A stretch of DNA of 64,000 nt from an uncultured bacterium. Lineage in GTDB: Bacteria; Cyanobacteriota; Vampirovibrionia; Gastranaerophilales; Gastranaerophilaceae. The translations under genes and the position numbers were made by a program. Within the stretch, counting starts at the first letter, position 1; every line of letters starts with the position of its first letter. Shown in pieces: positions 3,063 through 29,146 of this stretch. The notes beneath the pieces are model-generated. The model was given only the letters and a program-made list of their open reading frames with translations, was not told where the DNA came from and did not search any database. The stretch covers positions 62,001 to 126,000 of the forward strand of contig CASDWY010000015.1 of assembly GCA_949284985.1 (NCBI GenBank). Reading direction: 5' to 3'.

Positions 3063-5609
3063 TTATAAGAAAGAGTATTTGCTTATATAGTTAACTTTGT
3101 TTGGGTAATTCCCCTCCATCGCCGGACATGTTGGAATTCCATTACCAAGTGATCCTGTTCCATGCCATTTAGGTATACAACAATCAAAGCCGTCTGAGCG
3201 ATATGGTTTACATTGCCAAAAGAGAACAGGGTGAGTTACCCCCCCCCCCCCGCTATTGGGGTTTCGCCACACAAAATCAAATTCTAAATTGTAATCTGTA
3301 TTAAGCACATCATAGCATCCTCCAAGAGCACTTGGATCAATCCGGCAATCTCTATGCAGCTGAGGCGGCAAATAATATGGATGAATTGTAGGCCAAGGAT
3401 TTTCTTTTTTATACCAGGCACCTCCCGGGTTAAAACTATTACTGCTGGATATATATTGAACCCCATTAGACTGGTCATTTTTTACAGCAACATTCACACT
3501 ATAAGCGTTAGTAATCGTAGAAGTAACATATCCTGTAATACCACCAAGCCGCACTACCGGATCAGCTTCTGTGGCAGTAATCGAACCCAGATTATATACA
3601 TCGCTAATAGTTGGTTCTTCGTCACTACCGCCCAATATTCCACCAGTATGAGTCAAGCTCCAATCTGTTTTATAAGTACTGCTTATATTACCCGAGTTAT
3701 AAGCATACTTAATATCATTATACCCAAAAGAATTCCACATGAGCCCAGCGATCCCACCTGTATAAATATAAGCAGCTTCCTTGTTATTGTTATGTATTAC
3801 AGTTCCAACATTATACCCTCCTTGCACAGTTCCGTTAAGCTCGCCAAAAAGCCCGCCAACAAGCAACCACTCGGATATTGAATTTGAATTTACTGTTATA
3901 TTTCCTGTATTGTAAACACCTACCTCATTTACACCCGAATGCGAACCAGCTATTCCACCGGCAAAAACCGAGCCATCATTGGCATCTACTGTTATATTTC
4001 CTGTATTATACATGGGCATATAAATATCTGAACTAATTTGACTGTCCCCCACCAATCCACCAACATATATCCGTGAATAATAACTGCCTCCGGTAGTTTT
4101 AATATTAATATTGTTATAGCTTAAACCAAACCTATCAGTCGTATTTATTCCTATAATACCTCCCACTCTAATATTTTTATTTGGAGGTATAGCAGTAATG
4201 TTCATCTTACCTGTTGTATATATGCCTTCAACAACAGCACTTCCATGCATTCCACTATAAGAAGCCAAACTTCCAATCCAAGTTTCCTTATCGTGACTAG
4301 CGTCAATAGTTATATCGACATCTTCAAGCCCCATATTTTCTACGGTTCCGTTAACTTGTGAAAACAAACCAAATTTAGTTAAGGTAGAATTATCGGTATT
4401 TATTTTTAATTTCTTAATTATGTGTCCGTTTCCGTAGAATTTTCCACCAAAACTGCCGCTCTCACCGCCAATTGGCTGCCAGCTGCCGTTTACAAATCCA
4501 TCTTTGGTTTCATCAAGCTCTATATCCTCCATAAGGCAGTAAGTTCGCCTCAAGTCATTATTAACATTAGCAAGGTCTTTTTGGTTGTATATGGGCACAC
4601 AGCAAATAGGTTTTGTATACCCCCCAAGTCTTAAAACGCGTCTTTCACCATTATCACAAAGTTCCGGACATTTAAACGTACTTGGGTCATATTCCCCTAC
4701 TTTGCATTTTATAAGATAACAAGCTTCATTTTGGATATCATCTTTTTTTATAAGACTATCATTATTTTGCTGCTCCAATTTATGCATTAAATCCATATCA
4801 TACGGACAAACAAATGGCTTTTCACATGCCCCTGTAGCAGGATTAAACTGCGTATCATCAGAACAAACCAATTTGTCCAAATAATTCGATTTTACAAGTC
4901 CGTTAGGAGTAATTGCAATCAAAAACCTATCAATTACTTTATTTTCATCAATTATAAGATGATTAGGTTTTTCTCTGCCATTTACATCAACCACAAAAAC
5001 TCCGCAACCCTTAACAGTTTCAATTTCATCATTATACTTATTTACTGGTATTTCTAATTCGCAAGCTGAATCTAAATACGAAGCAAGAATGGAAACACCT
5101 CCACTCATCCTAAACGTCACTAATTCATCAGTTTTCATAGTAGGAATAATACTTTTTAAATCTTCTTTTAATTTATCCAAACCACTAAAACACTCCTCAT
5201 CACTTACACAGTCTTTAGGGATTGAGGAGACAGACATGAGCGCTGTTTTTAAACACAAAGACTTATTTTCAACATCATTGCCATGTTCATCCTTACAAGA
5301 TAAATTACTTAAAGCATGTACATCTGCAATCCAATTACTTTTAGATTTAGAAGCTTGCATTGCACTTTCAGTTATTCCTGAAAGATTATTAAATGTAATA
5401 TTAAACCTACCAAGCAAATCTTTTTGCTTTATCTTATTAAACTTAATTACTCCAATAACAAGAGCAGCAATAACTGCAATAATCGCCAGTGTAATCATAG
5501 TTTCTGCAAGAGTAAAAGCTTTACATGTACGTTTTAAAGAACTCAAAGACTTATTTTTTGTAGCGTTTAAACGTATTTTTTTAAAAAAAAGCTTTACTAT
5601 TCTTAACAT
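3063..5609 (-). CDS. prepilin-like protein with GLUG-repeat surface region
   Basis: About 848 aa from the chosen start. A basic leader of about 30 residues is followed by AFTLAETMITL and a hydrophobic helix, the class III signal of type IV pilins and pseudopilins (cleavage would be after Ala, with Glu at +5). A Cys-containing middle follows, then a long Gly-rich region with repeated GG[IL][AFIV]G units (GGIIG, GGLVG, GGIAG, GGLFG, GGIAG, GGILG, GGITG) and neighbouring Y-NxGNI strands. This matches GLUG-type repeats that form beta-helical adhesins. The C-terminal part is Cys/Trp-rich. I chose ATG 5609 because GGAG lies 8 nt before it; an in-frame ATG at 5672 has no SD. A run of 13 G in the gene (3239-3251) lies 58 codons before the stop. 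Likely exported and surface exposed; exact role unknown. Confidence 0.75.
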   Translation of the reverse strand: MLRIVKLFFKKIRLNATKNKSLSSLKRTCKAFTLAETMITLAIIAVIAALVIGVIKFNKIKQKDLLGRFNITFNNLSGITESAMQASKSKSNWIADVHALSNLSCKDEHGNDVENKSLCLKTALMSVSSIPKDCVSDEECFSGLDKLKEDLKSIIPTMKTDELVTFRMSGGVSILASYLDSACELEIPVNKYNDEIETVKGCGVFVVDVNGREKPNHLIIDENKVIDRFLIAITPNGLVKSNYLDKLVCSDDTQFNPATGACEKPFVCPYDMDLMHKLEQQNNDSLIKKDDIQNEACYLIKCKVGEYDPSTFKCPELCDNGERRVLRLGGYTKPICCVPIYNQKDLANVNNDLRRTYCLMEDIELDETKDGFVNGSWQPIGGESGSFGGKFYGNGHIIKKLKINTDNSTLTKFGLFSQVNGTVENMGLEDVDITIDASHDKETWIGSLASYSGMHGSAVVEGIYTTGKMNITAIPPNKNIRVGGIIGINTTDRFGLSYNNINIKTTGGSYYSRIYVGGLVGDSQISSDIYMPMYNTGNITVDANDGSVFAGGIAGSHSGVNEVGVYNTGNITVNSNSISEWLLVGGLFGELNGTVQGGYNVGTVIHNNNKEAAYIYTGGIAGLMWNSFGYNDIKYAYNSGNISSTYKTDWSLTHTGGILGGSDEEPTISDVYNLGSITATEADPVVRLGGITGYVTSTITNAYSVNVAVKNDQSNGVQYISSSNSFNPGGAWYKKENPWPTIHPYYLPPQLHRDCRIDPSALGGCYDVLNTDYNLEFDFVWRNPNSGGGGVTHPVLFWQCKPYRSDGFDCCIPKWHGTGSLGNGIPTCPAMEGNYPNKVNYISKYSFL
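3239..3251 (-). repeat. homopolymeric tract, 13 G on the coding strand
   Basis: Thirteen consecutive C on the plus strand, read as four Gly codons plus the first base of a Val codon in the minus-strand gene. With 12 G the next codon is TAA. With 14 G the frame meets TAA after ten further codons. The tract is therefore placed as a length-dependent switch for the last 58 residues. Confidence 0.9.
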
Positions 5610-5736
5610 TATCAACACTCCGTTATTAACTCCAAGCTCAATAATAACAAACTTATACGCATTAATCAACAACTTAAATAATTAAGAATAAAACATCAAC
5701 TTTTCTCAATTAACTAGTCTATTTTTTAAAAAAGAC

Positions 5737-28240: not shown

Positions 28241-29050
28241 TTAATAATTCATCGCATCTTCTTCTAAAACTCTACCGGCACAATAAGCACCTTTACCACC
28301 TTCACCATTTTTATTAACATTTTCAGTTGTGCAATAGTTGTTATTTTTCCAATATTCGGTTGGTAATTTCTGCAAGTCTGAATATAATTTTGAGCCAGTA
28401 GGCAAAACAAGTCCCATAGGGATTTTTAAAGCTCGTTCTGCCGCTAAATCTGTTATAAAAAATGAAAACTGATCCCTACCCAACTTATTAGGTCCCCTAA
28501 ATCCATTTATATCGATTATTTGGAGATCGCCGTTCCATATCATTCCATCATTTGTAACAAAAGATGTTCCACTATTAGTTGCGTAATTAAAGTTATTTTT
28601 AATTTTTTCACATGTTTTATCTGTTGAGTTGTTGTAGTTATAACACAATTTATTAATTTTAAACTGCTTAGAAAGAAGATACACTTGTTTGTTTTCTAAG
28701 TATCCGTTAAACTCCTGTCCTTCAATGTTTGTAACATTGCTAGCCCAATTCCCATTTATATTTTGCCCACCTTGATCCCATCCCACACAATCAAAATCAC
28801 CAGCGGGGCAGCCTTGGGTAATAGGAATCATCTTCATAGCGTTTTGTAATTGGGAGTAAGCTTTTTTTAGCCCAACAACGTAGCTATGTTTTTGATATTT
28901 GGAAATTAAATTCGGAATGGTTAAAGCAGCAATAACTCCAATTATAGTTAGAGTAATTAATGTTTCTGCCAATGTAAAAGCATTTTTCTTATTAATACTA
29001 TTTTTATCAAGTATTTTAAGTGTTTTCGCAAGTTTTATTTCATTTGACAT
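28241..29050 (-). CDS. prepilin-like (type IV pilin/pseudopilin) protein
   Basis: About 269 aa. A basic leader is followed by NAFTLAETLITLTIIGVIAAL, split here as the leader Ala, Phe at +1, Glu at +5 and a hydrophobic helix, then QKHSYVVGLKKAYSQLQNA. The C-terminal part has Cys pairs, DINGFRGPNKLGRDQFSFFI and a short tail. The pattern DxNG..PN......D.F.F resembles VDVNG...PN...DRFLIAI in the larger prepilin-like protein at 3063-5609. I prefer ATG 29050 (weak GAGAT upstream) to ATG 29080. Probably displayed at the surface by a type IV or type II-like system not encoded beside it. Confidence 0.82.
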   Translation of the reverse strand: MSNEIKLAKTLKILDKNSINKKNAFTLAETLITLTIIGVIAALTIPNLISKYQKHSYVVGLKKAYSQLQNAMKMIPITQGCPAGDFDCVGWDQGGQNINGNWASNVTNIEGQEFNGYLENKQVYLLSKQFKINKLCYNYNNSTDKTCEKIKNNFNYATNSGTSFVTNDGMIWNGDLQIIDINGFRGPNKLGRDQFSFFITDLAAERALKIPMGLVLPTGSKLYSDLQKLPTEYWKNNNYCTTENVNKNGEGGKGAYCAGRVLEEDAMNY

Positions 29051-29146
29051 AAAATATCTCAATTCTTTCAAACTTAACATTACTATCTGGCAGTAGTTTT
29101 GTCAATATTATTAATAGTACATTTGGTGGTATTTTTTATTACAATG

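Follow-up and report, generated by a model that had tools for sequence, protein, structure and literature searches.

The window, by which we denote the whole 64-kb stretch of DNA analyzed here, contains on its minus strand a gene for a large prepilin-like protein with a run of 13 G close to its 3' end. The features of this gene are the following:

3063..5672, minus strand: prepilin-like gene, 869 aa, TTG start at 5672
5457..5531, minus strand: prepilin cleavage/methylation motif, residues 48-72, KAFTLAETMITLAII (Pfam PF07963, TIGR02532)
3252..3368, minus strand: conserved block before the tract, PPQLHRDCR...CYDVLNT...VWRNPNS, with invariant Cys776 and Cys786 (alignment of four homologues)
3239-3251, minus strand (13 C on the plus strand): 13-G mononucleotide tract coding for Gly808-Gly811 and the first base of Val812
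3063..3239, minus strand: putatively switched C-terminal segment, residues 812-869 plus stop, predicted to be lost on -1 or +1 slippage

The true start of the gene is probably a later Met codon, placed before SLKRTCKAFTLAETMITL. The initial annotation had described a GLUG-repeat prepilin-like gene, and the prepilin half of this description was borne out: the protein matches PF07963 (N_methyl) with 23.2 bits (cut-off 21.2, E 4.9e-5) and TIGR02532 with 19.4 bits (cut-off 16.3), and it carries the N-terminal motif and hydrophobic helix of a type IV prepilin, with KA-FTLAE and Glu at +5. The GLUG half did not stand in Pfam, as the window protein gave no match to Glug (PF07581). A Glug score of 7.4 bits was obtained for one homologue, and a profile built from four homologues matched IgA1 protease at the repeat region (E 6e-5), which is indirect support; 'GLUG-like' therefore seems a fair name, although the Pfam cut-off is not passed. 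A second prepilin-type gene is found in the window at 28907-29077 on the minus strand, without a long G/C run nearby.

The 13-G tract and its predicted effect on the reading frame

The tract begins at a codon boundary of the ORF at 3063-5672(-), its four GGG codons specify residues 808-811 and the 13th G opens the GTA codon of Val812, so that the position on the coding strand and the frame arithmetic given by the initial annotation were confirmed. Its claim that such a run is very improbable by chance also held up, since a first-order model predicts 5e-6 (G) or 3e-5 (C) runs of at least 13 per window, and the second-longest run of G or C in the 64 kb has 6. Four consecutive GGG codons do not reflect a codon habit, because GGG accounts for 145 of the 1172 Gly codons in the window ORFs. 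The tract is thus a pure repeat far beyond chance expectation within a coding region, as is typical of contingency loci.

Simulated indels reproduced the two predicted truncations. Removal of one G places TAA directly after ...GGGG (811 aa), and addition of one G leads to ten further codons and then TAA (821 aa). Gain or loss of a single unit would hence alter the product, which is a second property of contingency loci, and residues 812-869, a segment of 58 residues that indeed contains 4 Cys and 2 Trp, are lost in two of the three frames. The tract is situated in the last 7% of the gene. It is, as judged from the sequence, a candidate C-terminal switch of an atypical kind rather than the usual 5' ON/OFF switch.

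Homologues retain the C-terminal segment and lack the tract

Only the two other genomes of the genus yielded homologues with this Cys-rich tail. G002 has a single copy, and G001 has a complete copy plus two partial copies at contig ends. In the alignment of four homologues, the C-terminal segment contains the invariant elements PVL, QC, GxxCCxP and CP, with Cys821, 831, 832 and 849. As invariant Cys residues flank the tract on both sides, truncation would split a Cys-rich domain, and since the tail is conserved in the homologues of G001 and G002, its loss should matter. None of the three homologues alignable over the tail has a tract at the linker, which reads GGA GGC GGA (L045), GGI (L041) or NTT (L040). 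The window tract is unique to its own genome among the genomes compared, and its absence from the homologues indicates that the pure G run is derived. SRR15604541_bin.4 was considered as a second strain and rejected, as the gene is absent from it. A search for alleles of the window gene or of the cassettes described below in viral contigs yielded none.

Long G/C runs are concentrated in a dispersed leader cassette

The genome to which the window belongs (G000) contains 34 G/C runs of at least 9 and three runs of exactly 7, a two-peaked length distribution which composition does not produce. Sorted by their flanks, the 34 runs fall into about 30 cassette copies, two prepilins whose leader incorporates the tract directly (L091 and L113), the window gene and one polyprenyl-synthase-like gene. 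At least 28 and probably 30 runs reside in a single dispersed cassette, 28 of them with distinct upstream DNA; this count is approximate, since many contig ends of the 35-contig assembly fall in cassette repeats. The polyprenyl-synthase-like gene (311 aa) carries an in-frame run of 9 C at L012:1501-1509, indicating that such runs can occur in genes without an obvious switching role. The cassettes are located as follows:

G000 loci L079-L112, e.g. L093:3135-3992, minus strand: promoter, poly-C leader ORF, hairpin, prepilin
G000:C15:126848: nearest cassette, about 850 bases past the right end of the window

Each cassette is arranged in the order promoter, Shine-Dalgarno sequence, leader ORF with a poly-C tract of 9-15, hairpin with U-run and prepilin ATG. 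The promoter TTGATT-17-TAAAAT is present in 27 of 28 cassettes and is followed by an AGGAG-type Shine-Dalgarno sequence before the leader ATG. The position of this promoter, upstream of the leader ATG, led us to reject a role of the poly-C as a promoter-spacing switch. The distance from leader ATG to tract is 62 nt in all 26 copies, and the sequence 3' of the poly-C is GAATACTAAGTCGTAGCAAGGG... About 48 nt after the tract, all 24 complete copies contain the hairpin TCAAGCC-N9-GGCTTGA, in which one loop pair varies from C-G to A-U, followed by a U-run. GGAGG and then the prepilin ATG are found 3' of the hairpin. The RNA fold of the whole cassette region is unremarkable (z -0.84) and unusual only locally at the hairpin (-9.6 kcal/mol, z -3.9); a terminator scan of L093 found nothing, as it permits loops of at most 8.

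The distance from CTAAG to the prepilin ATG is 127, 130 or 133, a single class modulo 3 in 20 of 20 copies. Taken together with the constant 62 nt, this implies that out-of-frame indels are restricted to the poly-C tract. The tract lengths are distributed over the three frame classes as 13/8/5, which does not differ from equal proportions (p 0.15). In the class of eight, the leader comprises 71-73 aa, continues through the hairpin and, where the copy is complete and has kept its usual start, ends 11 nt into the prepilin. In the remaining two classes the leader has 26-29 aa and stops at +9/+16, that is 31-38 nt before the hairpin (+48). Direct in-frame fusion of the poly-C to the prepilin was rejected for the main family due to stops in the frame concerned and holds for two copies. 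S/N counts were alike in all frames of the leader, in a count in which four contig-end copies were misframed; protein-level selection on the leader is not clear, so its coding nature rests on the frame and stop-codon arguments.

Cassette flanks share 93% mean identity at tract lengths of 9-15, and copies whose flanks have 0-1 mismatches are 1-2 C apart in tract length, a difference seen between copies and not between cells. Copy to copy, the leader cassettes thus show the variable length in constant flanks that characterizes contingency loci. The encoded prepilins share a median of 96% over their 45 N-terminal residues and 37-70% over the rest, their middle parts being different, and the leader haplotypes are mosaics, which makes recombination among the copies likely.

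The cassettes resemble a translation-dependent attenuator

In Streptococcus gallolyticus pil1, a leader-peptide gene contains repeats whose changes shift the position at which the ribosome stops relative to a terminator; a longer leader keeps the hairpin from forming and activates the pilus operon (PMC3894217). The cassettes contain the same elements, namely a promoter, a repeat-bearing leader ORF and a terminator hairpin before a pilin gene, and their leader frame sets whether the hairpin region is translated. As in pil1, the repeat lies in the leader-peptide gene and the longer frame enters the hairpin, and the distance from the short-leader stop to the hairpin is some 39-49 nt in pil1 compared to 31-38 nt here (PMC3894217). 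The repeat is GCAGA in S. gallolyticus and poly-C in the cassettes, and two sortase-pilus loci (pil1 and pil3) stand against at least 28 type IV prepilin cassettes (PMC3894217). Unlike in pil1, the predicted ON leader of the cassettes runs past the next start codon, with an overlap of 11 nt, and the cassettes are known from sequence.

By analogy, translation-dependent antitermination is the most likely mechanism of the cassettes. In one frame (ON), ribosomes would translate through the intrinsic terminator into the prepilin start, and in the other two (OFF) they would stop before it. Translational coupling at the 11-nt overlap perhaps adds to antitermination. The approximately 30 further runs seem to act as switches for an entire set of pilin genes in this genome.

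G/C tracts in prepilin leaders of other Gastranaerophilales

Other genera of the family carry their tracts, on one strand or the other, within the leader of the prepilin. One example leader, MKKLFFSAYGGGGKRLVSFSNVFRGFTLAEVLITL, is ON with 11 G, and neighbouring copies with 10 G are OFF. Among 31 prepilin genes with a leader tract in other genera, a script count assigned 5 as ON and 24 as OFF and left 2 without a state, with two of the five ON calls using an ATG without a Shine-Dalgarno sequence, for which reason OFF may be commoner still. In nearly all of the 29 assignable prepilins, the present length or a change by one joins a Shine-Dalgarno-preceded ATG to FTLAE. Some of the tracts lie away from prepilins: tracts were located upstream of a prepilin in 5 of 31 cases in one sample of loci and in 15 of 38 in a sample of chosen regions.

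Tracts of at least 10 C are present in 113 of 142 genomes of the family. When the phylum was sampled evenly, the median tract load was 32 per genome within the family (maximum 176, n=62) and 1 outside it (maximum 38, n=84); the tract load is specific to the family. The maximum was reached by G189, with 176 C/G tracts of at least 10 in a genome of about 2.2 Mb. The organism of the window belongs to Candidatus Gastranaerophilales, as do the named MAGs, in agreement with the earlier assignment of the window to a Gastranaerophilales-type bacterium.

Multi-copy poly-C elements were also observed at L072, L176, L188, L189, L193 and L199 (BRZ_E__bin153, BRZ_CP__bin33 and G104). They share a 3' motif consisting of C11-12, 14 nt and AGCAAGGGTTT, and no prepilin was found near them. 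CALVBD and CAOJDT MAGs have a similar motif, which there lies on the opposite strand in the form of MKTIAMT leaders; this may be chance. In G077, two adjoining paralogues of about 1000 aa (L162:6070 and L162:9697, minus strand) share a site with a C run, 10 long in one and 9 in the other, and only one of them is in frame; this pair looks like another phase-variable family of non-prepilin type.

Discussion

The 13-G run probably allows the last 58 residues of the window protein to be switched on and off by copying slips. We consider it rather likely that the window holds a recently grown, length-unstable C-terminal switch alongside a genome-wide set of poly-C leader switches. According to this model, the run would have grown recently in the Gly-rich linker of a large prepilin-like surface protein, and slipped-strand mispairing at replication would add or remove one G. 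With 13 (or 10 or 16) G the full protein would be made, with 12 or 14 G the conserved Cys-rich last 58 residues would be cut off, and one population would comprise a mixture of cells with full-length and truncated protein, i.e. C-terminal phase variation. The window tract would then be an atypical member of a genome-wide set of about 30 leader poly-C tracts. Slippage of a 13-G run in a Gastranaerophilales lineage is very likely; slippage in living cells, the attenuation mechanism and selection for switching are what we infer from the assembled genomes.

The proposal that the locus is a contingency locus was upheld in part: the lineage-wide prepilin tracts and the differing lengths in near-identical copies speak for it. 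The late site makes the switch an atypical one, and since the homologues in the genus have no tract, the run is of recent origin and may be an accident that is tolerated. The Gly linker might have drifted to a pure G run whose slips and truncations are non-adaptive and will be lost, which supposes a lineage polymerase and repair tolerant of long G/C tracts. The position of the tract late in the gene, its absence from all homologues and the frame-intact 9-C run in the polyprenyl-synthase-like gene are compatible with such drift. However, a run of 13 G greatly exceeds the background of the genome outside the cassettes, where three runs of exactly 7 occur, the window gene encodes a surface prepilin, as do the other genes that bear tracts, and the tail that would be switched is conserved, so that we regard mere tolerance as unlikely.

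It is also conceivable that transcriptional slippage or frameshifting by ribosomes at the G run yields full-length and truncated protein in fixed proportions from one DNA allele, without any switching of the DNA, as homopolymer runs are generally able to cause slippage. Yet near-identical cassettes differ in length, which points to change at the DNA level in this lineage, and the sequence bears no sign of a programmed frameshift site; we judge this explanation to be very improbable. Least probable of all is that the length of 13 is an artefact of assembly or sequencing. The tract is part of the consensus of an unfinished 35-contig assembly, in which one poly-C contig end (L083, the end of G000:C3) resembles junk sequence, but it is located in the interior of a 127-kb contig, both its flanks match homologues, and 13 is the in-frame length; the conserved frame would be lost if the count were off by one.

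The preferred reading, a recent C-terminal switch next to leader switches, has precedents. The mononucleotide contingency loci of Neisseria, Campylobacter and Helicobacter are pure G/C tracts in surface genes. The Gastranaerophilales tracts resemble them in being pure G/C tracts of 9-15 in surface genes and, in other members of the order, in their predicted translational ON/OFF control by leader frameshift. They differ in belonging to uncultured, non-photosynthetic gut relatives of cyanobacteria with up to 176 tracts in about 2.2 Mb. C-terminal phase variation is known from Helicobacter canadensis, where eight genes show length variation at the read level (PMC2823697). As there, a poly-G of at least 10 lies near the 3' end, a change by one alters the C-terminus only, and the organism also has many 5' tracts; in contrast to those eight genes, the present case concerns one gene, a large prepilin, known from assembled sequence (PMC2823697).

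The larger result is the lineage-wide occurrence of G/C tracts in prepilin leaders together with an amplified attenuator-like cassette. Genomes of 2 Mb contain tens to more than 100 long G/C tracts, many of them in prepilin leaders where the context was examined, and a mechanism described in two S. gallolyticus pilus loci would exist in many-copy form in one gut species. The proposed repertoire consists of leader frameshifting in many genera, about 30 mosaic attenuator cassettes and the C-terminal switching in the window. Tract-based switching has so far been described mainly in pathogens, and our literature search found no paper joining Gastranaerophilales with phase variation. On balance, we lean towards the view that gut Gastranaerophilales possess one of the largest known simple-sequence phase-variation repertoires, centred on type IV prepilins, with stochastic pilin expression in a non-pathogen. 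If this is true, surface pili would differ from cell to cell, with consequences for phage, immune and adhesion interactions.
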